Part shown: one piece after another, positions 19,384 through 39,008 of the stretch | Numbering within the stretch: the stretch's first letter is position 1 | Layout: every line of letters begins with the position of its first letter | Source: Marine Group III euryarchaeote CG-Bathy1 | Lineage (GTDB): Archaea > Thermoplasmatota > Poseidoniia > MGIII > CG-Epi1 | Assembly (NCBI GenBank): GCA_001875425.1 | Contig: MIYU01000021.1 | Span: 1 to 41,508 of the forward strand | Length of the DNA: 41,508 nucleotides | Direction: 5' to 3' | The notes under the pieces: generated by a model | Seen by the model: the letters and a program-made list of their open reading frames with translations, nothing else | What the model was told of the DNA's origin: nothing | The model's database searches: none | Program-made: the position numbers and the translations under genes

Positions 19384-20517
19384 TTAACCCCAAAAGAGAA
19401 AAATGTAGGAGATTATTAGAGCCGGGATGGCGCTGTATAATGTAGCTATAATCGCCATTCGAGGAGTTAGAGCGATAGCTGGAAAGAGAGCGTCACCATC
19501 GTTAGAGATGGCATTTCCGATTAAAGCAGCGAATGGAATGATTCCATTAAGATAGAGTGTTGTAACTAAAATCTGAGGACCGCAACCTGGAACGAATCCT
19601 ACTAGAATAGCCAAGAGAGGAACAACAATCCAAGCTGCATCTGCGAGACCGGCTAGATCTAAATCGAAAAAGGCGAAAGCGTACTCATATGCTAGATAGG
19701 CTACGATAACCCAAGCAGTTACGAATGAGGTTTCCTCAGTAGCGCGAGTGAATGGGTGATCTTTGTGAACTGTCACAGCACTGACCGGTGAGATGGCCCA
19801 GACACCTACAGAGAGTGCAGCACCACCTAGACCGATTGCTAGAACGATAGTACCTAATGAATGTAAATCGTATTGTAGGAGTTGCATGGAACCCAAAATA
19901 AGGCCTGGAAAAGCGATGAGCATGTAGAGTTTATCTCGATTACGTAATCTTCCGATTACTCTATGTCCTAAGAATTTAACATCGGAACTGTAAAGGTCAC
20001 CGCGATGAAACCTATCTACCAACCAACCACAGATAACTGCTGCAGTGATTGAGATGGCCATCACTTTCACATAAGTTGTAGGCTCTTTTGCAAGAAGAAG
20101 GAAAGCAGCATCACCCATAGTTCCAATCAAAGCAGCGACCATCGCACCGAGAGTGATGTTTCCACGAGCGAAAGCGGTGATGACGACTACTGCACCCCCA
20201 CAACCGGGAAGAGCACCTAGACAACTAGCAGTTGGGACTTGCCATACGCCACCTTTCTCCATAACCTTACCGACATCGATGTTGAAAAAGCGTTCCAAAC
20301 CGAAAAAGAAGAGAAGAGTAGCAGCGACGAAAACAGAAACTTGAGTATATGCATCGAAAATTGAAAGGCGAGTAACTTCGCCCAGTTCACCGGGATAGAC
20401 AGCTGCAATGAAGAGTAAACCTGCAGCGATTATACGGCGATAACGTTCCTTGAATAAATTCTCTGTGTCACCTATATCTAAATCTAATGAGGTTTTTTTC
20501 GAGGTTATTGGATTCAC
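19384..20517 (-). CDS. Putative heavy-metal (manganese) exporter, 10-TM ArsP_2-like family
   Basis: A 377-residue polytopic membrane protein with two similar halves. Each half has a conserved turn, ALPGCGGAVVV (about residue 102) and GFVPGCGPQILV (about 315). The matching downstream blocks are LIGTMGDAAFLLLA and NAISNDGDALFPAIA. These repeated PGCG and GDA motifs are typical of the family catalogued as a putative 10-TM heavy-metal exporter or manganese transporter. The start is GTG, overlapping the regulator's stop (GTGA), with GGAGG at 20525-20529. Co-transcription with a DtxR/MntR-type regulator supports divalent metal transport. The metal, Mn(II) rather than Fe(II), is inferred. Confidence 0.8.
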   Translation of the reverse strand: MNPITSKKTSLDLDIGDTENLFKERYRRIIAAGLLFIAAVYPGELGEVTRLSIFDAYTQVSVFVAATLLFFFGLERFFNIDVGKVMEKGGVWQVPTASCLGALPGCGGAVVVITAFARGNITLGAMVAALIGTMGDAAFLLLAKEPTTYVKVMAISITAAVICGWLVDRFHRGDLYSSDVKFLGHRVIGRLRNRDKLYMLIAFPGLILGSMQLLQYDLHSLGTIVLAIGLGGAALSVGVWAISPVSAVTVHKDHPFTRATEETSFVTAWVIVAYLAYEYAFAFFDLDLAGLADAAWIVVPLLAILVGFVPGCGPQILVTTLYLNGIIPFAALIGNAISNDGDALFPAIALTPRMAIIATLYSAIPALIISYIFLFWG

Positions 20518-21170
20518 GAATCATCCTCCAAAGAGACGTAAACTTCGTTCGCCACTGATGATGCAATCTGTACTGTTTTGCCATTCAGATTGGCCGTTAA
20601 TCCGCCATCGAAAGAATCCCTTGAAATCAGTTCTAATTGAGTGTCAGGAAAAATTTTATTTCGCTCTAACCAGGCCAACATTTCCGAATTTCGGTCCGGT
20701 ACCTGTCGGATGATTAAACGCTGATTCAATGGAGAGTCGCTGAGTAGTAAATCGGTATCTGCAGGTAACTGACCATCTGGACCTGGAATTGGATGACCGT
20801 GTGGATCTCTTGTTGGGTTTCCAAGATAGGTTGCGATTGCATCCTCTAAATCGGCAGAGAGAGCGTGTTCGAGTCGTTCGGCTTCATCATGAAGTTGCTC
20901 ACGACCCAGATCGAGTGTCTGAGCTAGAAAGGTCTCCAGAAGACGATGGCGACGGACAACAGAGAGCGCTTTGCGTTGACCTTCAGGAGTCAAAGAAGCA
21001 CCCTTGTAAGGAATATGACTAACCAGCCCTCGTGCAGTGAGGCGTTGTAACATCTTGGTCGCTGAAGCCGGTGCAACGTTCAGATGTTGAGCCAAATCCT
21101 GAGTCGCTACATCGTTGGGACCGAGCTCCCAAATTGACTTGAGATAGTTCTCAACTGCAACTGAATCCAT
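20514..21170 (-). CDS. DtxR/MntR-family metal-dependent transcriptional regulator
   Basis: A 218-residue repressor. Order of domains: winged helix (residues 1-65, with VATQDLAQHLNVAPASATKM as recognition region), dimerisation and metal-binding domain (about 66-140, RRHRLLETFLAQTL and LHDEAERLEHALS), family-typical NPTRDPHGHPIPG, then a C-terminal FeoA/SH3-like domain (about 148-214). Where DtxR has its metal-binding Cys102, this protein has Glu (AERLEH), as MntR-type proteins do, although the N-terminal ligand pair is altered (VENYLKSI). It is co-transcribed with the exporter and preceded by a perfect palindrome, so autoregulation is likely. Confidence 0.92.
   Translation of the reverse strand: MDSVAVENYLKSIWELGPNDVATQDLAQHLNVAPASATKMLQRLTARGLVSHIPYKGASLTPEGQRKALSVVRRHRLLETFLAQTLDLGREQLHDEAERLEHALSADLEDAIATYLGNPTRDPHGHPIPGPDGQLPADTDLLLSDSPLNQRLIIRQVPDRNSEMLAWLERNKIFPDTQLELISRDSFDGGLTANLNGKTVQIASSVANEVYVSLEDDS
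20525..20529 (-). promoter_or_regulatory. Shine-Dalgarno site for the GTG-started metal exporter
   Basis: GGAGG on the minus strand lies seven bases before GTG 20517, inside the end of the regulator gene. It supports the GTG start and translational coupling. Confidence 0.65.
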
Positions 21171-23793: not shown

Positions 23794-25103
23794 ACTTCAA
23801 AACCTCTTGGCAGATAACGTAGAAGATCGACCCTTCCTCTCAAATCTGAAACGTTGTCTAATCCTAGTTTTCTAAGAATTTCTCTAAGTTGCCATTGGAC
23901 TGATGAATAAAAATTGACGATTCGTTGAGAACCCCAATCCGGATGAATCCATTCTTTTAACTCTGGATCTGTAGTTGTTAAACCAAATGGACAACCCCGG
24001 CCTCTTTCGCAATTAGAACAGCGGGTGCAGCCCATTGATACTAATTCTGAAGTGCCTAAAACACAGCCATCAGCACCTAATGCAATTGCCTTAGCTATGT
24101 CATGAGCTGTTCGAATTCCCCCACTAGCTATTAGCGTGACTTCATCTCGGATACCTTCAGAGACTAGATGTTTGTGAACTTTGGGAACTGCTAATTCAAT
24201 AGGCATGGCTATGTTTTTCTTTGCTATTTCAGGAGCTGCACCAGTACCGCCATATGAACCATCAAGATGTATAACGTGCGCACCTGCATAGTATGAACCA
24301 ACTGCGACCATGTCGACATCTGTTGGTGTTGAAACTTTTACTGAAATTAAAGCATCAGGATTGATAATCATAGCCCAATCTAAGTGTTTTTTATGATCTT
24401 CAACAGAATAAACTGAATGAAATGGAAATGGAGAAAATAAGGAAACCCAAGGAACTGATTCCCGCATGTTAGCAACAGCTGTAGTAGACTTATCGCCGAG
24501 TAAATGCCCTCCTAAACCTGGCTTTGCACCTTGAGCATATTTGAATTCTACCATTGGTGAATTCTTTATTGTTTCTTCACGAACGCCGAAAAGACCGGTG
24601 GCAATCTGAGTTATGACATTATCTTTGTATGGTAATAAGCCATCAGGATAACCTCCTTCACCTGTGCAAGTAAGTGTACCGAATTCAGAAGCTGCACGAG
24701 CACGAGAAACCATGACTTCTTCTGATACTGAACCATAAGACATACCTCCTCCATAAACAGGAATAGAAAGTTTCAATTTCCTTCTAGTTGGATCACGACG
24801 ATTTAGAATCATTGAAGTAGAGATAGAGTCATCATTACTGAGCCAATCATTTTCTGGTAAAAACTTGAAATCGAGCTTATCGAAACCTCCTCCGGAATGA
24901 CCGACTTGATGTTCTAAATCATTTGGTGGAAGACCTGTTTCAGCAGCATACCATGTTGAAAGAATAAGTTCAGGCGTCCAGCGAGCATCTCCCAATGCTG
25001 GAGGAATTTCTTCAACGCCGTGAGAACGGTCATGAAAACCGTTATGCAGGTAATGTGTTACCTTCTCTACCACTGCGGGACTGGGACTTTTACTCGTAGC
25101 CAT
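23790..25103 (-). CDS. Glutamate synthase FMN-binding central domain subunit
   Basis: A 437-residue TIM-barrel flavoprotein, the catalytic core that turns 2-oxoglutarate plus ammonia into glutamate. Motifs: GGGMSYGSVSEEV (118-130), EFKYAQGAKPGLGGHLLG (186-203), ISVKVST (253-259), LDGSYGGTGAAP (280-291) and the FMN-phosphate loop IASGGIRTAHDIAKAIALGA (325-344). The Fe-S ligands are C359, C362, C365 and C371 (CTRCSNCERGRGCP), a fuller set than the three of bacterial GltB. It begins 14 bases inside the end of the upstream paralogue. An electron donor subunit (NADPH or ferredoxin) is not present nearby, so ferredoxin dependence is plausible. Confidence 0.9.
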   Translation of the reverse strand: MATSKSPSPAVVEKVTHYLHNGFHDRSHGVEEIPPALGDARWTPELILSTWYAAETGLPPNDLEHQVGHSGGGFDKLDFKFLPENDWLSNDDSISTSMILNRRDPTRRKLKLSIPVYGGGMSYGSVSEEVMVSRARAASEFGTLTCTGEGGYPDGLLPYKDNVITQIATGLFGVREETIKNSPMVEFKYAQGAKPGLGGHLLGDKSTTAVANMRESVPWVSLFSPFPFHSVYSVEDHKKHLDWAMIINPDALISVKVSTPTDVDMVAVGSYYAGAHVIHLDGSYGGTGAAPEIAKKNIAMPIELAVPKVHKHLVSEGIRDEVTLIASGGIRTAHDIAKAIALGADGCVLGTSELVSMGCTRCSNCERGRGCPFGLTTTDPELKEWIHPDWGSQRIVNFYSSVQWQLREILRKLGLDNVSDLRGRVDLLRYLPRGFEV

Positions 25104-26544
25104 CTATATCTCCAAATGCTTCCTTTTCCAAATCTTTTTGGAACATTGCCCTTCCGAGTTCACCCCTCATACGTCGTACCTCTCTTATTCCCATGGCACC
25201 CATTATTTCGAGAAGTTGATCACGCCAAGCAGCGCAGAGATTCTTTACTCTCTGAACGCCCCAACTAACTGTAAATGATTTTGGTAAAACAAAATTAGAA
25301 AATTCGGAAGAGATGCATTCGCCTTTAGGTTGTGCCTGTATAGCAGCTAAGAGTGGAGTATCTAATGCAACTGCATCGAAACCACAAATGATTGCTTTAG
25401 GCACATGTTCAGCAGCTGCGATTCCCCCACTTCCAATCAAAGTTACCTGATCTCTAATTCCTTTCTTTACAAAATCTTTATGAGTTTTAATTATTAAATC
25501 TCGAATAAAATTACCATCACCACGTCCGTGATAATCTGCTACCATATGAAAAACTCTAACCCCTATGTCGAATGCTTTATGCATTAACTCTTCCCATCCT
25601 TCATCAAAATCAATTCTGAAACAGGTTTTGATATTTTGATTAGAAAGACTCTTCACTGCACTAATATCTAAAGCTTCGATTAACCTAGGAGAAAAATTCA
25701 ATTTTTGAATCAACTCTATTTCTGAAGAATTCACCTGAGGGACTAAATGTTTTCCAGAAAGTTTACAACCAAGAATTCCATTTATTGGCATAAAAGCGAG
25801 AGAATCGATTTCTTGAGCTGATTTACTCAAAACGTTCAACAGCTTAGCACTTTTGATAGTCTGCGGAGGTGAATCGAAAAGAATTGGTAATTGAGTAGAA
25901 AGAGTAGCTGGTTCAGTACCGATAATCTCTCCTTTCGAATTGAAAGAAAGATGCATTGGTTTACTGCCTATATCTGTTACAGTCGATATGAATTCACGAC
26001 CGTGAATACCATCGCGAGTTGGTCGAACGATTTCAGACATATCAGTCCAAATGCGATCCCAACCAGGACCTCCAAAGCGACCTCTGTATCCTTGCCCCTT
26101 AACTGGTACTGCTCCAGTAGATGCTTCTGTTAAAATTGTATCTACTAACTTAGGAGAAAGGTAAGTATCTCCCCAAGATTTCCATTCTGGATTGTGTTTG
26201 ATAGTAACTACATCCGGATGTTGTATCGTACACCTTAAACAACCAACACAATGATTTGGACGAGGTGCAAAACCACCTATTGGACCTGAAAAAACACCAT
26301 AAACGCAAGGACGATTCAAAATAACATCTAATTTACCGAAATAATCTCTACTTTCTTTAATAATTAATTTTAGTAAATTAATTCGACTGACTTCAACTAA
26401 AAAACGATTAGGCAAATTTGACATATCTGCAGTCATTGCTGTTTCTATGTGATAACGATGATACACAGGGTCCGTATCTATCGTAGAATTAGATATTTTA
26501 GAAATATCTGTTTCGACACTAGAGTTACCTTTAGCCATAGCCAT
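25090..26544 (-). CDS. Divergent glutamate-synthase-like FMN-barrel paralogue with ferredoxin-like CxxCxxCxxxHP motif
   Basis: A 484-residue first gene of the glutamate-synthase operon. Its C-terminal half aligns by eye with the next protein: VRVFHMVADYHGRG versus VIHLDGSYGGTG, LIGSGGIAAAEHVPKAIICG versus LIASGGIRTAHDIAKAIALG, and a shared end rich in WGVQRVKN / WGSQRIVN. It lacks that protein's C-terminal Cys cluster and the KPGLGGHLLG block. Instead it carries CVGCLRCTIQHP at residues 99-110, a ferredoxin-like motif whose fourth cysteine is His109. PVKGQGYRGRFGGPGWD and EIVRPTRDGIHGREFIST are further conserved-looking blocks. It may transfer electrons to the catalytic subunit or be an accessory enzyme. 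Function is not known to me. Confidence 0.75.
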   Translation of the reverse strand: MAMAKGNSSVETDISKISNSTIDTDPVYHRYHIETAMTADMSNLPNRFLVEVSRINLLKLIIKESRDYFGKLDVILNRPCVYGVFSGPIGGFAPRPNHCVGCLRCTIQHPDVVTIKHNPEWKSWGDTYLSPKLVDTILTEASTGAVPVKGQGYRGRFGGPGWDRIWTDMSEIVRPTRDGIHGREFISTVTDIGSKPMHLSFNSKGEIIGTEPATLSTQLPILFDSPPQTIKSAKLLNVLSKSAQEIDSLAFMPINGILGCKLSGKHLVPQVNSSEIELIQKLNFSPRLIEALDISAVKSLSNQNIKTCFRIDFDEGWEELMHKAFDIGVRVFHMVADYHGRGDGNFIRDLIIKTHKDFVKKGIRDQVTLIGSGGIAAAEHVPKAIICGFDAVALDTPLLAAIQAQPKGECISSEFSNFVLPKSFTVSWGVQRVKNLCAAWRDQLLEIMGAMGIREVRRMRGELGRAMFQKDLEKEAFGDIDGYE

Positions 26545-26645: not shown

Positions 26646-27089
26646 ATGTTAAATAAGACCGATTCTGCACTAATAGCAGCTCTAAATGATGATGGTAGGG
26701 CTTCTCAAAGAGAACTAGCATCCTCTACAAAAGTAGCTTTAGGAACAGTTAGTAATCACCTCAAAAAACTTGAATCAGAAAAAATAATTAGAGGTTATCT
26801 GCCAGATATTGATCCTGAAAAAGTTGGATTTACATTAACGGCAGTGATGCATGTTAGGATAATGAAAGGACATATTATGGAAGTTCAATCGTCTATTGCA
26901 GAACATCCGAGAGTGTTTGGTGTTTATGATGTGACAGGCGAATGGGATTCTATGGTGCTTGCACGTTTTACAAATAGAGAAGAGATGGATTCGTTCATCA
27001 AAACGGCCCTTTCTCAGAAAAATATTGAACGAACGAACACCTCATTAGTCCTCAATACTGTGAAAGAAGAGTCTAGAGTTATATTATAA
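26646..27089 (+). CDS. Lrp/AsnC family transcriptional regulator (glutamate-synthase neighbour)
   Basis: A 147-residue regulator with an N-terminal helix-turn-helix (about 5-60, SQRELASSTKVALGTVSNHL with LESEKIIRGY wing) and a C-terminal RAM ligand-binding domain (about 66-140, YDVTGEWDSMVLARF). Lrp/AsnC proteins sense amino acids or related small molecules and act as dimers or octamers. Divergent placement opposite glutamate synthase suggests control of nitrogen assimilation, possibly with glutamine or glutamate as effector; that is inference. A palindrome over its own start points to autoregulation. Confidence 0.93.
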   Translation: MLNKTDSALIAALNDDGRASQRELASSTKVALGTVSNHLKKLESEKIIRGYLPDIDPEKVGFTLTAVMHVRIMKGHIMEVQSSIAEHPRVFGVYDVTGEWDSMVLARFTNREEMDSFIKTALSQKNIERTNTSLVLNTVKEESRVIL

Positions 27090-29215: not shown

Positions 29216-30359
29216 TTTTTACCACATCCCCATCCTTTAGTTCACTATCTTTTCCGATTACCATTTTCGTTTTACAATCTATAGCCCGTATGAAACCATC
29301 ACCTATGTCTGTATGAACTTTGTAAGCCAAATCTAAAGCTGTAGAATTCCTAGGTAATAGATAACAATCTGGAAGAACTGTACCTTGGCCATCGGCATAG
29401 TGAGTCTCATCTTCAACTGGGTATGCAGTAATCAAATCCAATTTGTTGAACACTGCATCTTCTATACAAATTTGGACACCGGTAGAATTGAATTTGGTTA
29501 AATAATCTGAAATTTTACCAAGAGCAGCAATCTGTTGTTGGTTTAATTTATCAGGAAACAGTACCTCAAATTTAGAAGAGCCGAGACCGTATTTGATGAC
29601 GCCTGAATTGTGTGCATTCCGAAGAGCTAGTTCTAAATCAGAAGCTGTAGGTATTCCTCCTAATGATTTGAGAGTCTCCAAATTACTGTCGCTAGAAATA
29701 TCGGCTTTGTTAGCAGCTATGATTATCGGTTTTCCAATTTTTTGAATGTTTTTAGCTAAAGAAAGAGCATGTTCATCTGTCCAAGAATGAACGGAAGCGG
29801 GGAGATCGGTCTGTCTCAGAGCAGTAGTTATTTGCGCTAAAGTGATCTGTAAACCGGCCAAACGATCTGAAAGAAAGTCTTCTAGTTTTTCACCAGCCTC
29901 TACGGAACGGGAAGTGCGAGCCCAATTTCTCATCAATATTGATGAAATCCAATGATGTATCTCATTTTCTAAAAATTCAACCTCTTTTTCTGGTGGAGAA
30001 TTTGAAGATATATTGCCTTCTAAATCGGTCGTACCTGAAGTGTCTACAATTTGTATCAAAACGCTAGCTTGTCTAAGATCATCCAAGAATTGATTTCCCA
30101 TTCCTTTTCCTTCATGAGCCCCTGGAACTAAGCCTGCAACATCAATTAATTCAATTGGAATTAATCTTGTACCATCGTCACAATTACTGCAATCAGCATT
30201 CAAACTTTTACAGGCACATGGACTAGTAACGTGTGAAATTCCTTTGTTAGCATTAATAGTAGTGAAGGGGTAATCTCCTATCTGAGCGGGTGCTTGAGTT
30301 GCAGCTGAAAAAAAAGTAGACTTACCTGCATTCGGCTTTCCTACTAAACCTACCTTCAT
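29196..30359 (-). CDS. ychF: OBG/YchF-like GTPase (OLA1-type, TGS domain)
   Basis: A 387-residue translation-associated P-loop NTPase. It has G1 GKPNAGKS (7-14), G2 region DYPFTTINANKG, G3 DVAGLVPGAHEGKGMGNQFL and a G4-like AANKAD. A C-terminal TGS domain spans about 315-385 (NSTALDLAYKVHTDIGDGF). A cysteine-bearing insertion (CACKSLNADCSNCDDG) follows G2, as in archaeal members. Its ATG shares a base with the stop of the giant surface protein (TAATG), an unexpected coupling of a housekeeping GTPase to an exported protein. Confidence 0.93.
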   Translation of the reverse strand: MKVGLVGKPNAGKSTFFSAATQAPAQIGDYPFTTINANKGISHVTSPCACKSLNADCSNCDDGTRLIPIELIDVAGLVPGAHEGKGMGNQFLDDLRQASVLIQIVDTSGTTDLEGNISSNSPPEKEVEFLENEIHHWISSILMRNWARTSRSVEAGEKLEDFLSDRLAGLQITLAQITTALRQTDLPASVHSWTDEHALSLAKNIQKIGKPIIIAANKADISSDSNLETLKSLGGIPTASDLELALRNAHNSGVIKYGLGSSKFEVLFPDKLNQQQIAALGKISDYLTKFNSTGVQICIEDAVFNKLDLITAYPVEDETHYADGQGTVLPDCYLLPRNSTALDLAYKVHTDIGDGFIRAIDCKTKMVIGKDSELKDGDVVKIVSQKS

Positions 30360-33300
30360 TACAATCCACCTATACTTGGGCCGAAGTTATCGATTTTTGG
30401 TGGTTTTTTCTTTTTCTTTTCTACTGGAGTAGTATCGGATGATGGTTGTTCTTCTGTTTGCGGCACTTCAGGAGATGGGGTCTTAGAAATTGGAGCTGGT
30501 TTAGATGGAGCTGGAACATCCGCAGCAGGACCTAGAAGATCTTCCATCTTCTTTGATTTTGTCGAAGTAGAACCGCCACCTACTGAAACTGTTTTAGGTT
30601 GAGAAATAGGTGGAGAAGAGGGCGTACTAATCTCTAATTGACTCGAGTCTGTATCAGAAGTTTTAGGCTCTGGAGTTTTCGGTTTTTTTTCGCGTTTAGA
30701 TACCTCTCCAGTTTCATTGACCTGAGAAACAGATTTACAATTTGGACAGCGAAAAGCACCTGATCTTGTAACTCTAACTTTAGAAGAGCAATCTTGACAA
30801 CTAACGACTAAAGGAAATAGATTAAGATTTGTAGTTTCGATAGTAGGAGATGGCATGTACTCTCCAGGATGTTTAGACTTGGAACGGTAATACATGAAAC
30901 TGCCAATCGCTAAAGTGGCGCCGAAAACCAAGAGAAATGGCATGAAACCGTTGCCTTCATTTACTACCGTGAATGAATTTAATATTGCATTATTGGATTC
31001 TCCATCAGTCCCTTCATTGATTTCATTTTCGGGATCAATTTCGATTTGTAGATTGTATAAACCATCATCTTCAACTTTGAAATTTACATCTACAAGTGCA
31101 AAATAACCATCACCTAAACCGTTGACGTATTCGATACCAATTTGTTCACCATTCAAACGGAAGATAACGGTAATAGTTTGATCGACATCGTCAAAATCAG
31201 CCGTGATACGAATCTTGGCTGTGACTATATCATCTACTTTTGGATTAGATGGAGTAAAAGTTATCTCTTCGTCATAAAAACGTAAATCTGGAGTTTTGAC
31301 TAGTGATAATGTTACTGTTTCCTGATAGGTAGTTGAAGAAGAAGTGAAAAGTAAATGAATTGCCCAATCTGAAACTACAGCCCCCTCACTGACTATTGTA
31401 ATGCCAACATAATCAGAAATTAAGCCTCCAGGTTCTATTTCATCTGAACTCCATGCATGATAGATATTCAACCCTACACCAGAATCAGAAGGTGTAACTG
31501 ATAGAGAGACTGACTCCTTGATATTTCCTAAATTACGAATTATAAAATCGAATTTATTATTCACTCCAGCTGCGGCTGAAAGTGAATTCTGATTAATGGT
31601 AAATTCTAAGTTATAGAATGGTAAAACTGTTAAACTAAGGGGCGTGGAAATTGGTGAATTGCCGTGTTCAATTATTAAAGAAAAATTATATGTGGCAGCC
31701 AAAGCATCTTCTGTTGGCGTAACTAAAATAGATAGTAAATGAGATTCATCGGGTTGTAATGTTTTTGATTCTGGATTCAATACAAAGGACCAATCATCTG
31801 GAAGATTGGCTAAAGAATAATTCAAAATATTATCGCCATTACCATCGTTAATGATTTCAATAGAATAACTAGCTGTATCTCCAACTTCTACTTCAAGGGT
31901 TGAATTATCTACATTAATAGATGTATCATAAAGTTGAAGAACTGATATGAGAATATCTACAGATGAGGCTGTACCATCATTTTCGTCATAAGAACTGATA
32001 GTTAGAGAATAAACCCCAGATAGTGTGTCTTCTGGTACGACGATAACTAATGAAACGTTATTCTGTTCACCTACTGTTGCAGGAATTGTAAACCCAGACT
32101 CAGTTTGTTCTGCATCAGCTATAATTGCCCAATCAGCAATATCACCAGAAAATTCGAATGTTATGTTAGTATCAGGTGAACTATTGATTGTGAATGTGTC
32201 AGTTACCGAATAACCATTATTATTAGATGAATCACAACTGCTGTGATCATGGCTATGGAATGTGTCAGAACAATCTGGGAAGTCTAAAAATAATAGAACG
32301 TTATTATTTGAAGAGTCGTAAACTGTAACGCTTCCAACCTTACTACCATCATCCCAAGCATCACCATAATCATCTTCAAGTATTAAGGTATAAACACCAT
32401 CATCAAAAGTGAGATTCTCTGTATTTACACAATCTGACGTTACATCGTGTGATTGATAAACAGATTCATCTTCACTATTTGTAATTCTATAGAAACCCTC
32501 ATAATAGAAAGCGTCACCGCAAACTTCTAAATAAATAATAGAACTAGAGCTGTGATTAGGATCTAAAGCCACCGCTTGAAGAGGAAAGGTGACGCTCTCA
32601 TCTGGATAGAGAGAAGCGTTTTCACTTTCAGTTGTTAAACCTGTTGCAGTTATTTCGATATCTCGTAATATTTCCACTATTTCTCCTGCATTTTCTGAGC
32701 GTTCAGAAATGATGTGTAAAGTTGCAAAGCTAGAAGATCCTGCGCCAACGATACCTGAATTTATTACAAACACAAAATCTTGAGAACTGTTGGCTGCGAA
32801 ATCCACGTCATCGGAAAAATCATCTAACCAATCGCCAGAAAAAGATATATCGAATGTATCGTTTCCATTACCTGTATTGGAAATAGTGATGAGGACCGAA
32901 TGATTGACATTACCGAGTATTTCTAATTCAAGAGGGGATGAAAGATTCAAGCCGAATAATTGATCTGTACTTATTTCAGTTATCAAACTAACGGGATCGA
33001 GATTAGAATTATCAATTGAAGATACTGTTAAATTTAGAGATGTAGAAAATCCTGATTCTAAATCGGAAGGTGCGACCACATGTACTTCAACGAAAGTATT
33101 GCTATTGGCAGCAAGGGATTTTTGCCAATCATCATCTCCATCATTATAGTATACATCCCAATCACTGGGCAAAGAAGAAGCGTCTAATCTTACTTCAGAA
33201 TCCTCGTCATTATAATTGTAAACTTTGAATCCGATTGGTAAATCTTCTCCGGGATTGATATAGATTGGACCTGTAGTTTCATCAGTTCTTTTAATCCATA

Positions 33301-36300
33301 ATCCAGATAAACCACGCACTTCAAGATTTAGATATACTGTATCTTGATGTCCGGAGATGTATGAATCTAAGGCTATTGTTAATTCAGTTCCCCAGACAGA
33401 TTCGTCATCAGGTATGGTGATATTCAACCAAGCATTCCCCACATCACCAGAATAAATATAGTAATTATCAACACAGGGATCTCCATCATATTCTAGAGTG
33501 TATTCCCACCCCGGCCAATTAGAATCTGACTCATTCATGCAAAGACGATAACTATGTGCTGTGCTATCTTCTGCCAAGTCAGTATATTGTAAATCGAAGC
33601 TTGCAACACTTCCTGCAAACTCTGTTAGGTCTAATGTAAGAGCCATGAGTTGGCCTACTGTTGTTGTAACGTCTTTAGTTGCACTTACAGATGAATCGCC
33701 ATCTGAAAAAGTGTGTATTCCGAATACTTTGAAATCGCCACGAGATGCATCTTCGGGACTCTGTATAATGAAATCCAAATCAATATGTTCATCACTATCC
33801 AAAGTTACTTCTGAAATTTGTGAACCGTCTGAATGAATTTCGGGATCATCCCACTGCGAATCTCCATTGTCTGAAGATAATGAAAAGGTATCTTCATAAT
33901 TTCCAGAATTGCGGAGTCGTACAGTATAACTTACTGTTGTATCGGGAAATACTGTTCTTTCATCAGAACCCAAAATTTCGAGAGTGACGCCATGTGTTTG
34001 GTTGATTGAGACGGTTAGATTTAGAGAGTCTGACTGACTATTGTTTCCTTCAGAAGTGATTGTAAAATTAAAACTATAATTTCCAATAGAAGTAGTGCTT
34101 TCTGAAGTGATACTCAAAATTATCTGTACTGTTTCATTTTCATCGAGATTGTTTAGAGCAGATTCATCGTTTAGAGACCAAGACCAATTAGATGGTTCAA
34201 GAGATGCAGTAAACGAATCTTGATTAATTCCTATATTTCTAACATCTATTGTGAAATTAGCAGATTCGCCCGAGTTAGTATTCTGTACATTATTTTCATT
34301 AGTAAGTTCAACGCCGTGTTCCGGTCTGATGTCTATAGGTTTACTGGCATTATTATTATCATATCTTACTTCTTCGTTGTTATTTGGAACTACAACGCAC
34401 CAAATATCGTGAGAACCTGTGATAGATGGAGACCAAGTAATATCTTCTAAAGTTATGAATGAGCCAGCGTTGATATCTACAGAAATAGAATCTGTAACCA
34501 AATCCCCTTCGTTTGGATCGTCGATTCTGAGCTCTATATCCACATTTTCAGCTTTGCTATTACCTGTGTTGTAAACGGTTATGCTAAAACTCAGATTTTG
34601 ATGTTGTAGAGCGCTTGAGACTTCTTCTCCATTCTCATCTAAAATAGTAAAATCCTCAGGATTTATTTCTAGCTCAACTAAATCTGCAGACAGAATGGCA
34701 GCGTCTATGACTAAATCTAAAATACCATCATTATCCAAATCGCTTGCAGATGGAGAATTAAAAATACGATTATCGCTGAATCTATTAGGTAAAGTTACGT
34801 TCCAAATTTCGAAAGAATTGCTAGCTTCGCCTGCATATTCGCCCATGCCATCAATTGCATAGCAAGTTGGTGTAACACAGAAAAAGACATCATCATTTGA
34901 ATCCTCAAGAGAATCTGCAGTATTTATTACAGCTACAATGGGTGAAGAAATTGAATGTTCGTCATCATCATTTCCCTCTTCAGAATTAGAATCGAAGGCT
35001 TCAGACCATCTTAATTGTTTATTTGGAGTCAGCGCCCAAACAAATGATTTTTCACTAGTAAAGGCACCCTCATCGACCCAGCTAACCACTACTATGTCCA
35101 AATCCCCATCACCATCTAAATCTCCAATTGCGGGTGTTGCATCTATATCATTGTCACCATTACCGCCATCTAAAACAAATGGAGAAGACCAACCAGTAGA
35201 AGTGGAATTATCTAAATCTAACAAATGGAGTCGTGCATTTTTTTCATCGTCTTCGTCCTCTTCAAAATCACCTGCAAAAGGTTGTGCTACAATCAATTCC
35301 ATCTCACTATCAGAATCCATATTAGCTAAAACGACACTCGGAATCATAGGATGGTAACTAGTATCATCATCAGGTGAATATGCATATCCAACAGTATGAG
35401 GAGCCCAATCATTTAGAACTGAAATTCCATTACTTGTTTCTTGAATTCCGTAAACAGATAATTGATTATTCTGTATAACAGAATTGAAAATAGTGGGATT
35501 AGAATTTCCTTCATTTTCCAAAACAACGGGAGATGATACTTCCGTTACATCACATGGATTGTCCGGATCTGGACAAATAGGTTTGAAATCCCAAATTAGA
35601 GAATGTGAGGTTCCATCTATTGCCATTATATGCAATTCATCGTCATCAATACCAGATACAACTATGTCAGGTTTTGAATCAGAATCTATATCAAAAATAG
35701 CAGGATTACTACGAAATATCTCTAAATTAGTATTATAGGATTGATTAGAAGACCAAACAGATGGTTCAGATGAGTATGTTTGATTATTAGAATTATAATG
35801 GATTTTTGGTTCGAAGAATTTTACAACGCCGTCAGGAGTAGGGATGGCGACTTCTAAGTATCCATTTTGATCGAAATCGGCTAGAGAAGGTGTACCGTAT
35901 GCAATTTCAAAATCTTCGAAGCCGTCTAGATATTGAGTTATATTTCCTAAAGAACCGCGCCACATTAAATTGCCAGAATCACCGCGATCACCTACTGGAG
36001 AACCTTCACGTATGATTAGGAAACCTGTGAGATTATTTCCATCATATTCTACTGTTGCATAAACAATATGTGAAACATTTTTATCATAATTTCCAACTAC
36101 ATTTGAAGAAAAGTCACCTATGGTAGTACTCCAGGAAAATACCTCTTCACAATGAAAAGTATCAGAAATTGGAACAGAATCTGGATTACAAACATCATCT
36201 TCTTCAGATGCTTGATTGACATCCCCATAGTCCCACATGAGTACAGGACCTTTGGAACCTATGGATCTCTCGTAGTAATCTGAATGGCCTGTGTGATTAG

Positions 36301-36385
36301 AATCATGAGCGAACATAGGCCAACCTCCAACCGACGATGGAAGAAGAAAAGCGAGAGTTAGTAGTACTGTCGCAAGACGACGCAT
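30359..36385 (-). CDS. Giant surface protein: beta-propeller, CARDB/NEW3-like repeats, membrane helix and cytoplasmic zinc ribbon
   Basis: A 2008-residue exported protein. A signal peptide (RRLATVLLTLAFLLPSSVGG) is followed by WPMFAHDSNHTG, the usual entry to PQQ/FG-GAP-like propellers. Repeats with Ca-binding loops (ADFDQNGYLEV, FDIDSDSKPDIV, GDLDGDGDLDIVV, SDLDNDGILDLV) run to about residue 565. Some ten CARDB or NEW3-like sandwiches follow to about 1790. A helix at about 1812-1832 (FMPFLLVFGATLAIGSFMYY) leads to a predicted cytoplasmic tail with a CxxC-x15-CxxC zinc ribbon (SCQDCSS... RCPNCKS, about 30736-30806) and a Pro/Lys-rich end. Start ATG 36385 is chosen because it begins the signal peptide; the frame is open to 36448 and would otherwise overlap metK. 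Role unknown; adhesion or surface sensing are possible. Confidence 0.82.
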   Translation of the reverse strand: MRRLATVLLTLAFLLPSSVGGWPMFAHDSNHTGHSDYYERSIGSKGPVLMWDYGDVNQASEEDDVCNPDSVPISDTFHCEEVFSWSTTIGDFSSNVVGNYDKNVSHIVYATVEYDGNNLTGFLIIREGSPVGDRGDSGNLMWRGSLGNITQYLDGFEDFEIAYGTPSLADFDQNGYLEVAIPTPDGVVKFFEPKIHYNSNNQTYSSEPSVWSSNQSYNTNLEIFRSNPAIFDIDSDSKPDIVVSGIDDDELHIMAIDGTSHSLIWDFKPICPDPDNPCDVTEVSSPVVLENEGNSNPTIFNSVIQNNQLSVYGIQETSNGISVLNDWAPHTVGYAYSPDDDTSYHPMIPSVVLANMDSDSEMELIVAQPFAGDFEEDEDDEKNARLHLLDLDNSTSTGWSSPFVLDGGNGDNDIDATPAIGDLDGDGDLDIVVVSWVDEGAFTSEKSFVWALTPNKQLRWSEAFDSNSEEGNDDDEHSISSPIVAVINTADSLEDSNDDVFFCVTPTCYAIDGMGEYAGEASNSFEIWNVTLPNRFSDNRIFNSPSASDLDNDGILDLVIDAAILSADLVELEINPEDFTILDENGEEVSSALQHQNLSFSITVYNTGNSKAENVDIELRIDDPNEGDLVTDSISVDINAGSFITLEDITWSPSITGSHDIWCVVVPNNNEEVRYDNNNASKPIDIRPEHGVELTNENNVQNTNSGESANFTIDVRNIGINQDSFTASLEPSNWSWSLNDESALNNLDENETVQIILSITSESTTSIGNYSFNFTITSEGNNSQSDSLNLTVSINQTHGVTLEILGSDERTVFPDTTVSYTVRLRNSGNYEDTFSLSSDNGDSQWDDPEIHSDGSQISEVTLDSDEHIDLDFIIQSPEDASRGDFKVFGIHTFSDGDSSVSATKDVTTTVGQLMALTLDLTEFAGSVASFDLQYTDLAEDSTAHSYRLCMNESDSNWPGWEYTLEYDGDPCVDNYYIYSGDVGNAWLNITIPDDESVWGTELTIALDSYISGHQDTVYLNLEVRGLSGLWIKRTDETTGPIYINPGEDLPIGFKVYNYNDEDSEVRLDASSLPSDWDVYYNDGDDDWQKSLAANSNTFVEVHVVAPSDLESGFSTSLNLTVSSIDNSNLDPVSLITEISTDQLFGLNLSSPLELEILGNVNHSVLITISNTGNGNDTFDISFSGDWLDDFSDDVDFAANSSQDFVFVINSGIVGAGSSSFATLHIISERSENAGEIVEILRDIEITATGLTTESENASLYPDESVTFPLQAVALDPNHSSSSIIYLEVCGDAFYYEGFYRITNSEDESVYQSHDVTSDCVNTENLTFDDGVYTLILEDDYGDAWDDGSKVGSVTVYDSSNNNVLLFLDFPDCSDTFHSHDHSSCDSSNNNGYSVTDTFTINSSPDTNITFEFSGDIADWAIIADAEQTESGFTIPATVGEQNNVSLVIVVPEDTLSGVYSLTISSYDENDGTASSVDILISVLQLYDTSINVDNSTLEVEVGDTASYSIEIINDGNGDNILNYSLANLPDDWSFVLNPESKTLQPDESHLLSILVTPTEDALAATYNFSLIIEHGNSPISTPLSLTVLPFYNLEFTINQNSLSAAAGVNNKFDFIIRNLGNIKESVSLSVTPSDSGVGLNIYHAWSSDEIEPGGLISDYVGITIVSEGAVVSDWAIHLLFTSSSTTYQETVTLSLVKTPDLRFYDEEITFTPSNPKVDDIVTAKIRITADFDDVDQTITVIFRLNGEQIGIEYVNGLGDGYFALVDVNFKVEDDGLYNLQIEIDPENEINEGTDGESNNAILNSFTVVNEGNGFMPFLLVFGATLAIGSFMYYRSKSKHPGEYMPSPTIETTNLNLFPLVVSCQDCSSKVRVTRSGAFRCPNCKSVSQVNETGEVSKREKKPKTPEPKTSDTDSSQLEISTPSSPPISQPKTVSVGGGSTSTKSKKMEDLLGPAADVPAPSKPAPISKTPSPEVPQTEEQPSSDTTPVEKKKKKPPKIDNFGPSIGGL

Positions 36386-36423
36386 AGAATACTGATAATT
36401 AGTCCGTACTTTAACCTTGACGT

Positions 36424-37566
36424 CTATAGAAGGTCGACCTTTTCCCATGTAAAGTCTGGGTGTTCTCTGCCGAAATGACCGTATGCAGAAGTATTCGAAT
36501 AGATGGGGCGCTTCAAATCAAAATTGTCGATTATACCGCTAGGAGTTAAGTCAAATTCAGAGTTTATTTTTCCTAGAATTGAATCTTCAGATTCAGTATT
36601 AGTACCGAATGTATTCACATCTAATGAAACCGGTTTGTCAACTCCTATACTATACGCTAAACTGAATTCACACCTACTAGCTAACCCAGCACTTACCACA
36701 TTCTTGGCGACACACCTAGCTGCATAAGCTGCTGAACGGTCTACTTTTGAAGGATCTTTACCCGAAAAAGCACCTCCTCCGTGTCTTGCGTAACCACCAT
36801 AAGTATCTACTATTATTTTACGACCTGTTAAACCACAGTCACCGTGTGGCCCTCCTGTAACAAATCGGCCTGTTGCATTGATATGAAGTGTTGGCATAGG
36901 GTCGAGAAGATTGCTGGGTATCACTTTCTTGATAACGTGTTCTATTATGTCTTCTTGGATTTTATCATGTTCAACACCATCTGCATGCTGTTGTGCTATT
37001 ACTATTGCATCTATGTTAGAAGGGTTGTTGTTCTCATCGTAAGAAAGAGAAACCTGTGATTTACCATCGGGATAAAAATAATCGACCACTCCTTGCTTTC
37101 TAACATGAGATAATTGTTCCGTTAATTTATGAGCATAATAGATAGGAGCAGGCATCAAAGTTGGAGTTTCTGAGCAAGCGAAACCGAACATCATACCCTG
37201 ATCACCGGCACCCTGTTGACTGTGTAATCCTTCTCCTTGGGTAACGCCTTGTGATATGTCTGTAGATTGAGAATGGATATGTGGCTGAACGGAGAAATTT
37301 TGCCAGTTGAATCCCATTTCTGATGAAGTATAACCTATATCTTTTACGGCATTTCTAGCAACTTTTTCCATGTCAATATACCCTGTAGTAGTTATCTCTC
37401 CTGCAATAACGGCTAAATCAGTAGTTAGTAATGTTTCACAAGCGACTCGAGAGTTTTTATCCTGTGAAAGAGCTTCATCTAAGACCGCATCGGAAATGCG
37501 ATCAGCCATCTTATCGGGATGTCCTTCAGTTACAGATTCGGATGTGAAAGATTTTCTAAATAACAC
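36424..37566 (-). CDS. metK: S-adenosylmethionine synthetase, bacterial/eukaryotic type
   Basis: A 380-residue enzyme making S-adenosylmethionine from methionine and ATP. It has the bacterial-type N-terminus [20 protein letters not shown] (His16, Asp18, Lys19), the loop [12 protein letters not shown] (119-130), [20 protein letters not shown], then [19 protein letters not shown]. Most archaea instead use a divergent archaeal MAT, so this type is notable. The start is GTG 37566, needed to keep the family N-terminus. It lies 14 bases after sahH, so both are on one transcript. TTGTATAC (37569-37576) sits just before the GTG. Confidence 0.95.
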
Positions 37567-37580
37567 AAGTATACAATACG

Positions 37581-39008
37581 CTAGTATCTATAAGTCTCGT
37601 GCTTAAAGGGGCCGGATGAGGGAATGCCGAGATAATTTGCTTGTTCATCAGATAAAGTAGTTAATTTTGCATCTAACTTGTCTAAATGCAATCGAGCAAC
37701 ATGTTCATCTATTGATTTAGATAGAGTATACAATTCCTTAGAATATATTCCTGTGTTCTTATTTTTCCAAAGATCTAGTTGAGCTAAAACTTGATTAGTA
37801 AAACTTGCCGACATAACAAAACTAGGATGTCCTGTAGCATTTCCAAGATTCATCAATCTACCTTCTGAAAGAATTATCACCCCGTGTCCGTCAGGAAAGA
37901 CCCATCTGTCAACTTCGGGTTTGATGTTTTGACGAACAACGCCAGGATAATCTCCTAGATTTTCTACGTCTATTTCATTGTCGAAGTGGCCAATGTTTGC
38001 AACTATGGCATTATTTTTCATCTGAGAAATATGATCAGCAGTAATGACTGATTTGTTTCCTGTTGCAGTGATAAAAATATCGATATCACTTACTACGTCG
38101 TTTAACCTTACTACAGAAAGCCCCTCCATGCACGCTTGTAGTGCACAAATTGGATCTATTTCAGATATAGAAACTCGTGCACCAGCAGATTTCATAGCCT
38201 GAGAACAGCCCTTACCGACATCTCCGTAACCACAAATTAAAACTGATTTACCAGCTAGCATGACATCTGTAGCCCTCATTAAACCATCAGGTAATGAATG
38301 TCTACATCCGTAGATATTGTCAAATTTTGATTTAGTTACTGAGTCATTTACGTTTATTGCAGAAAAGAGAAGATTGCCACTTTCTGACATCTGTCTAAGA
38401 CGGTTTACGCCTGTAGTAGTCTCCTCACTGACGCCGATTACATTTTTAGAAATCTTGTGCCATCTTTGAGGATCAGATGCTAAACTTTCTTTAAGTAAAT
38501 CTAAAACTATAGAAAATTCCTCATTTTCAGCAGAAGAAGGATCTGGCAATTCTCCTGTTTCTGCATATATTTTTTCTACTTTTACACCTTCGTGAATCAA
38601 TAAAGTTGCATCCCCACCATCATCAACTAGCATATCTGGACCTTCGGAATTCGGCCATGACAAAGCGCGGAAGGTACAATCCCAATAATCTTTGAGAGAC
38701 ATTCTCTTCCATGCAAATACGGCGGCGCTTTCGGATTCCGCAATAGCAGCTGCTGCGTGATCCTGTGTACTGAAAATATTACATGAAGCCCATCTCAAAT
38801 CTGCTCCTAAATCTTTTAGTGTTTCAATCAAAACAGCAGTTTGTACTGTCATGTGTAAAGAGCCTGAAATTTTAGCACCTTTCAACGGCTTTTCTTTTCC
38901 GTATTGAGCTCTACAGGCCATTAAACCTGGCATTTCAACTTCGGCGAGTTCGATTTCACGTCTACCGAAATCGGCAAGTGATAAATCAGCAACTTTGGAT
39001 TCAGTCAT
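37581..39008 (-). CDS. ahcY: S-adenosylhomocysteine hydrolase
   Basis: A 475-residue NAD-dependent enzyme splitting S-adenosylhomocysteine into adenosine and homocysteine, completing the methylation cycle with MetK. Visible are [42 protein letters not shown], the NAD fold [16 protein letters not shown] (about 257-272), [10 protein letters not shown] and the C-terminal FKHETYRY, where family members usually have KPDHYRY. It carries the roughly 40-residue insertion (about 150-190) seen in bacterial and eukaryotic enzymes and usually missing in archaeal ones. A TATA box at 39029-39038 predicts a leaderless transcript. Confidence 0.95.

Follow-up and report, generated by a model that had tools for sequence, protein, structure and literature searches.

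The stretch of DNA analysed here, referred to throughout as the window, comprises 41,508 nucleotides. It corresponds to contig 21 in an archaeal metagenome-assembled genome of 1.04 Mb and 79% completeness; the nearest named matches are metagenome-assembled genomes of Euryarchaeota. The host class is probably Poseidoniia (marine groups II/III), judging from genome size, neighbouring genes and the type II glutamine synthetase known to lie near a D-amino-acid oxidase in marine group II (PMC6741140). The window contains three genes that overlap head to tail on the minus strand. P1 (25090..26544, 484 aa), the first gene of the run, encodes a pseudo-barrel subunit with one predicted [4Fe-4S] cluster; P2 (23790..25103, minus strand) encodes a catalytic FMN/synthase barrel followed by a C-terminal Cys cluster (CTRCSNCERGRGC); and P3 (21226..23793, minus strand, 855 aa) encodes a class II glutamine amidotransferase fused to a GXGXG beta-helix. 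The P1/P2 overlap spans 14 nt and the P2/P3 overlap 4 nt. An Lrp/AsnC-type regulator (26646..27089, plus strand) precedes P1 and is divergent from the operon; in sister genomes, this regulator is divergent from glutamine synthetase (GS) (synteny of the window and L072 versus L100-L102). The order P1-P2-P3 is adjacent in every carrier with readable flanking DNA, and two unrelated genomes, G115 (L075, 840 aa) and G396 (L123, a 953-residue frame), encode P1 and P2 as one fused protein, which supports a physical partnership of the two. No P1-P2-P3 homologues were found in the plasmid and viral collections searched, and the papers on the host's archaeal group retrieved by a literature search do not discuss the operon.

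The rest of the window holds several other genes of interest. Directly downstream of the operon, a gene for an ArsP_2-type heavy-metal exporter overlaps one for a MntR/DtxR-type regulator with a FeoA domain (19384-21170); this pair is not beside the operon in the sister genomes listed. A 2029-aa exported repeat protein (30359-36448) has an N-terminal signal, a TM segment, a C-terminal CxxC zinc-ribbon-like end and, judged by eye, FG-GAP-like and CARDB-like repeats. Also by eye only, a gene resembling bacterial-type S-adenosylmethionine synthetase (MetK) adjoins an adenosylhomocysteinase-like gene at 36424-39008 of this archaeal contig.

P1-P2-P3 is a split glutamate-synthase-type enzyme that lacks GltD. 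P2 matches PF01645 at 3.3e-91 and the glutamate synthases in the PDB (2vdc, 1ea0, 7mfm, 1llw) with E-values down to 7.5e-57. It retains the GAKPG loop, and its GCTRCSNCERGRGCP cysteines align with the three [3Fe-4S] ligands of GltS; a further conserved Cys lies between these ligand positions (CTRCSNCERGRGCPFG), and judging from this pattern the P2 site could hold a [4Fe-4S] cluster. In place of the SP-PHHDIYSIEDL loop of glutamate synthases and archaeal GltB, SPFPFHSVYSVEDH or SPFPFHSTYSVEDH is found throughout the P2 family. Since this loop is unlike that of known GltS, 2-oxoglutarate as the substrate, and the identity of the product, are not certain. P3 matches PF01493 (GXGXG) at 2.2e-12 and PF13522 at 1.1e-5, and its class II motifs, including that of the N-terminal Cys nucleophile, are intact (EGGCGV, GHHRYPTKG, VHNGD, TDTE). 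The preliminary description was right that no NADPH subunit is encoded nearby: we found no GltD-like gene near the operon or, using PF14691, anywhere in the host genome, and the same profile found no GltD in 78 of the 79 genomes searched. The one relative among the 79 with a GltD-type Fer4_20 protein (G052:C49, L082) encodes glutamine synthetase as well, along with a 1505-residue frame that gives a GltB-type match to PF01645. Further P2-like PF01645 frames occur in family f2 (G073:C49 2457-3443; G040:C119 16453-17430); the G073 frame has no P1 or P3 beside it, and the same genome encodes glutamine synthetase.

As first described, P1 is a divergent copy of the adjacent FMN barrel P2, and the paralogy extends over its full length. 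By BLASTP, the two share 31% identity over 156 aa (E 7e-17), and a profile-profile alignment (hhalign; E 8.5e-20, 99% probability) extends from the N-terminal arm through to the C-terminal helix and covers almost the whole barrel. Divergence is nonetheless extensive: P1 scores 25.9 bits against PF01645, in its last quarter only, versus 307 bits for P2. Against PF04898, the GltS central domain, P1 reaches 15 bits and the P1 half of a fused relative 36 bits, a profile that true FMN barrels match too. In agreement with the initial account, P1 has neither the KPGLGGHLLG block nor the C-terminal Cys cluster found in P2, and the barrel catalytic blocks are missing as well. At the aligned FMN-phosphate position, where P2 has the Gly that ends the eighth strand (VLGT; Gly in 31 of 32 P2), an automated script assigned Asp or Glu to 35 of 37 P1 proteins; of the two it did not parse, L064 has Glu by eye and L123 is an exception with neither. 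An acidic residue in place of this Gly suggests loss of the usual FMN binding, and the P1 barrel is probably free of FMN.

The Fe-S domain of P1 was compared across 37 distinct proteins from the host class, other Thermoplasmatota families, Planctomycetota and Patescibacteria; one of them (L063) has lost the domain, and all ligand counts refer to the remaining 36. The Patescibacteria record (L036, 3-5210) holds a complete three-gene set and no glutamine synthetase, and may reflect horizontal transfer or misbinning. The motif CVGCLRCTIQHP occupies residues 99-110 of P1. Its three cysteines, C99-x2-C102-x2-C105 (26230..26250, minus strand), are invariant in 36/36, as is C80 (26305..26307, minus strand), the proposed fourth ligand. 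Nine distant P1 proteins carry two full CxxCxxCxxxC motifs, one of them with a slightly longer last gap, and these two-cluster relatives match Pfam Fer4 families; in the other 27, which we call the reduced form, C80 always stands 19 residues ahead of CxxCxxC. In 2[4Fe-4S] ferredoxins, each cluster is held by three Cys of one motif and a fourth from the other, as in 2pda, where the ligands are C689/C692/C695+C755 and C745/C748/C751+C699 (PMC1459171). When PC80VYG...C99VGC102LRC105TIQH109P of P1 is aligned with CxxCxxCxxxC-VYG...CKNCFRCVVECP of the two-cluster relatives and mapped on this ligand set (PMC1459171), C80 is equivalent to 2pda C699, a ligand of the second cluster, and C80, C99, C102 and C105 together are the ligand set of "cluster II". 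The ligands of cluster I, i.e., the first three Cys in motif I plus the fourth Cys in motif II at position 109 (H109 in the window; 26218..26220, minus strand), are all present in the nine and all absent from the 27, and the two states are never mixed. Thus, the window P1 is left with the ligands of just one ferredoxin cluster. Invariant cluster-II ligands together with all-or-none cluster-I ligands point to one ordinary cluster, and P1 most likely holds a single all-Cys [4Fe-4S] cluster bound by C80, C99, C102 and C105. The simplest reading of the alignment is that cluster I was lost and cluster II kept, which would make H109 a scar rather than a ligand. The ligand geometry is taken from homology because the AlphaFold model of P1, built from five sequences, had a mean pLDDT of 49 and was not used. 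Conservation holds for C99, C102 and C105, so that the motif is not a chance occurrence, and fails for position 109, with 25 His, 2 Tyr and 9 Cys. P1 is a clean example of how one of two clusters can be lost through the coordinated loss of four ligands from two motifs, and a caution that a CxxCxxCxxxH motif need not mean a His-ligated cluster.

We therefore consider it probable, on balance, that P1 is a non-catalytic electron-transfer paralogue with one all-Cys cluster, acting in a split glutamate-synthase-type complex with P2 and P3. The Fe-S domain of P1 would be what is left of a two-cluster ferredoxin domain after the loss of cluster I, and P1 would serve as a one-electron wire. P3 would handle glutamine and glutamate and exchange ammonia with P2, and the 2-oxoglutarate/glutamate redox step would take place on the FMN of P2. 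We infer an electron path that links this FMN through the clusters of P2 and P1 to an external carrier, either ferredoxin or a flavoprotein, and along which electrons move singly; this arrangement would replace GltD. In the reduced form, P2 has no ferredoxin domain of its own; in the two-cluster form, such a domain is present on P1 and on P2 alike. The absence of GltD, combined with the FAD/Fe-S or ETF neighbours found in relatives (discussed below), makes it most likely that P1 takes the place of GltD as the entry or exit wire. The earlier suggestion that one barrel may be used for electron input is retained in part: the P1 barrel is a probable Fe-S electron-transfer subunit, and the His-ligated or 3Fe cluster is not supported. 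Ferredoxin-type glutamate-synthase chemistry would be the basic ability of this enzyme, with the forward reaction, Gln + 2-oxoglutarate + 2 electrons -> 2 Glu, as the safe default. Forward chemistry alone, however, leaves hosts that lack GS unexplained.

Nearly all free-living microbes have glutamine synthetase. Among 79 relatives of the host, 17 carry the operon (one of them, G040, is included on the strength of P2 and P3 at the end of a contig), and GS (PF00120) is found in none of the 17 and in 56 of the 62 others. Eight further carriers recovered by a phylum search all lack GS. Over the genomes of the host class compared here, GS is present in 0/25 carriers versus 56/62 non-carriers (Fisher p 1.7e-16, a value that overstates the evidence since the genomes, mostly metagenome-assembled, are not phylogenetically independent). 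Only six of the 79 relatives have neither operon nor GS, compared with about 11 of 79 in which a universal gene should be missing owing to incompleteness alone; nearly every genome, then, has exactly one of the two. The GS concerned is GlnII, with a full-length match to NCBIfam NF041605 (6e-107, below the curated cut-off) and a match to PDB 4bax (1.8e-92). In the host class, the operon and GlnII are alternatives. Carriers encode as many class I glutamine amidotransferases as other genomes (5.35 versus 5.15 per genome), and glutamate dehydrogenase (GDH), which is near-universal, is kept in carriers; the retention of both indicates that carriers need glutamine and raises the question of its source in cells without GS.

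The pattern differs outside the host class. Carriers of the reduced form lack GS in G354 (8.7 Mb) and G355, and have it in G396 and G438. Genomes with two-cluster or fused forms have GS in eight cases (G130, G145, G218, G281, G312, G115, G455 and G631) and lack it in two (G266 and G617). In Planctomycetota that do not carry the operon, GS is found in 44 of 50 genomes. The proposition that the operon always excludes GS was rejected outside the host class, as some Planctomycetota and other Thermoplasmatota hold both.

In two families, f3 and f1, the operon and the GlnII gene occupy the same locus. The order in f3 is peptide-transporter genes, a short gene, an MFS transporter, the operon or GS, a DAO-type oxidase, PrsW-like and DUF92; in f1, it is a phosphatase, Lrp, and the operon or GS. 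The GS state of the f3 locus matches a published observation in marine group II, where a type II glutamine synthetase lies near a D-amino-acid oxidase (PMC6741140). The operon tree follows the genera and the GS tree does not, from which it appears that GS entered the operon site more than once. We looked for remnants of GS at loci that hold the operon, and for remnants of the operon at loci that hold GS, and found none. In g15, g22 and G040, the operon is located elsewhere and GS is still missing, so that position alone does not explain the exclusion; the idea that the two are simply alleles of one locus is weakened by these three cases.

Two readings of the direction of the reaction bear on this pattern. 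The first, which we regard as possible yet short of likely, is a plain forward glutamate synthase in scavengers: GS would have been lost because glutamine is obtained from peptides, and the operon would turn the surplus into glutamate. To our knowledge, all known glutamate synthases run forward, which favours this reading. A dipeptide/oligopeptide transporter cluster, recognised by eye, flanks the f3 locus in both of its states, and the host's archaeal group is thought to metabolise lipids and peptides (PMC9723583). Scavenging does not account, however, for the confinement of the operon to GS-less genomes in the host class, which would be odd for a role that only consumes glutamine. Moreover, genomes with neither operon nor GS are no commoner than incompleteness predicts, glutamate is already made by GDH, and the Planctomycetota carrier G354, with a genome of 8.7 Mb, also lacks GS.

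The second reading, which we hold to be doubtful, is that P1-P2-P3 replaces GlnII and supplies glutamine in hosts without GS, as an oxidative, ATP-free glutamine synthase from which electrons leave via P1. The reaction would be 2 Glu -> Gln + 2-oxoglutarate + 2 electrons, and the P1 cluster would hand the electrons on to a higher-potential carrier such as the quinone pool or ETF. In this group of abundant marine archaea, the absence of GS exactly where the operon is present, and the repeated replacement at the same locus, suggest a second way to serve the glutamine node. In favour of glutamine supply are the distribution in the host class (GS in 0/25 carriers versus 56/62 non-carriers), the six genomes with neither where about 11 were expected, and the interchange at one locus in two families, together with the lack of GS in g15, g22 and G040 despite an operon placed elsewhere. 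Along the same lines, the trees have GS seemingly entering the operon site more than once, and carriers keep both GDH and their class I glutamine amidotransferases (5.35 versus 5.15). By our own estimate from textbook potentials, the couple lies near -50 mV under standard conditions and at about -150 mV at cell-like concentrations, values at which the reverse reaction could be driven by a quinone, but not by NADP or ferredoxin. On the other hand, we know of no glutamate synthase that runs in reverse as a source of glutamine; GS is present in two reduced-form Planctomycetota (G396 and G438) and in most carriers of the two-cluster form; peptides could provide glutamine; and a [4Fe-4S] ferredoxin domain points to low-potential partners. 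If true, the reverse reading would account for the mutual exclusion of the operon and GlnII and for their interchange at one locus.

The remaining alternatives concern P1 itself. P1 might be a second active site with its own flavin or substrate, in a complex whose product is not glutamate; the WTDMSEIVRPTRDGIHGREFIST motif and the C-terminal helix rank among the best-conserved regions of P1, and the substrate loop of P2 is unlike that of known GltS, but the missing barrel catalytic blocks and the Asp/Glu at the aligned phosphate position make this improbable. Finally, the proposal of the preliminary description, which had missed both C80 and the two full CxxCxxCxxxC motifs of distant relatives, that His109 stands in as the fourth ligand of a CxxCxxCxxxH-bound [4Fe-4S] cluster, or that the site holds a [3Fe-4S] cluster, can scarcely be maintained: His occupies position 109 in 25 of 27 reduced-form proteins, yet Tyr replaces it in L036 and L122, the other cluster's ligands are lost all-or-none, and C80, the invariant fourth Cys, sits at the cross-ligating position of cluster II in 2[4Fe-4S] ferredoxins, so that ligand conservation in the 36 homologues speaks against His109.

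The reading of P1 as a non-catalytic electron-transfer paralogue can be placed beside three known or related systems. The first is the bacterial and plant glutamate synthase, GltB/Fd-GOGAT (2vdc, 1ea0, 7mfm, 1llw), to which P2 aligns with an E-value of 7.5e-57. These enzymes also contain a second barrel, the 'central domain', which is a truncated alpha/beta barrel that may have arisen by duplication of the FMN barrel (PMC8097209). A two-barrel plan as such is close to the textbook enzyme (PMC8097209) and less exotic than had been held at first; what does set P1 apart is that the second barrel is encoded by a separate gene and bears an Fe-S domain. In contrast, GltB is one long chain whose central domain has no Fe-S domain, and GltB/Fd-GOGAT receives electrons from GltD or from ferredoxin directly. 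The second is the archaeal split glutamate synthase, represented in the same phylum by L081 and L079, which consists of three genes for the amidotransferase, an FMN barrel with a 2[4Fe-4S] domain, and GXGXG. Like P1-P2-P3, it distributes the three domain types over separate genes, has the C-terminal Cys cluster on the FMN barrel, and shows no GltD among the neighbours listed. P1-P2-P3 differs in that amidotransferase and GXGXG form one protein, there is an extra paralogous barrel, the Fe-S domain resides on that extra barrel, and the SP-PHHDIYSIEDL loop is altered.

The third comparison is with the four-gene relatives of other Thermoplasmatota (L067-L069, L073, L074), which have homologous P1, P2 and P3 in the same order. 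Here, P1 and P2 each have a two-cluster ferredoxin domain, a C-terminal Cys cluster is retained on P1, the gene ahead of P1 encodes a FAD_binding_4 protein, and glutamine synthetase is present in most hosts. This additional protein (FAD_binding_4/FAD-oxidase_C/Fer4; L067 12529-14646, likewise in L068, L069, L073 and L074) is encoded directly upstream of the two-cluster P1; being of the GlcD or D-2-hydroxyacid dehydrogenase type, it is a possible electron donor. In G115 (L075, 1128-10097), a P1-P2 fusion without a ferredoxin domain is followed by P3, EtfB, an EtfA that contains a ferredoxin domain, and a CCG-domain/Fer4 protein; this set is possibly an ETF-linked form of the same enzyme.
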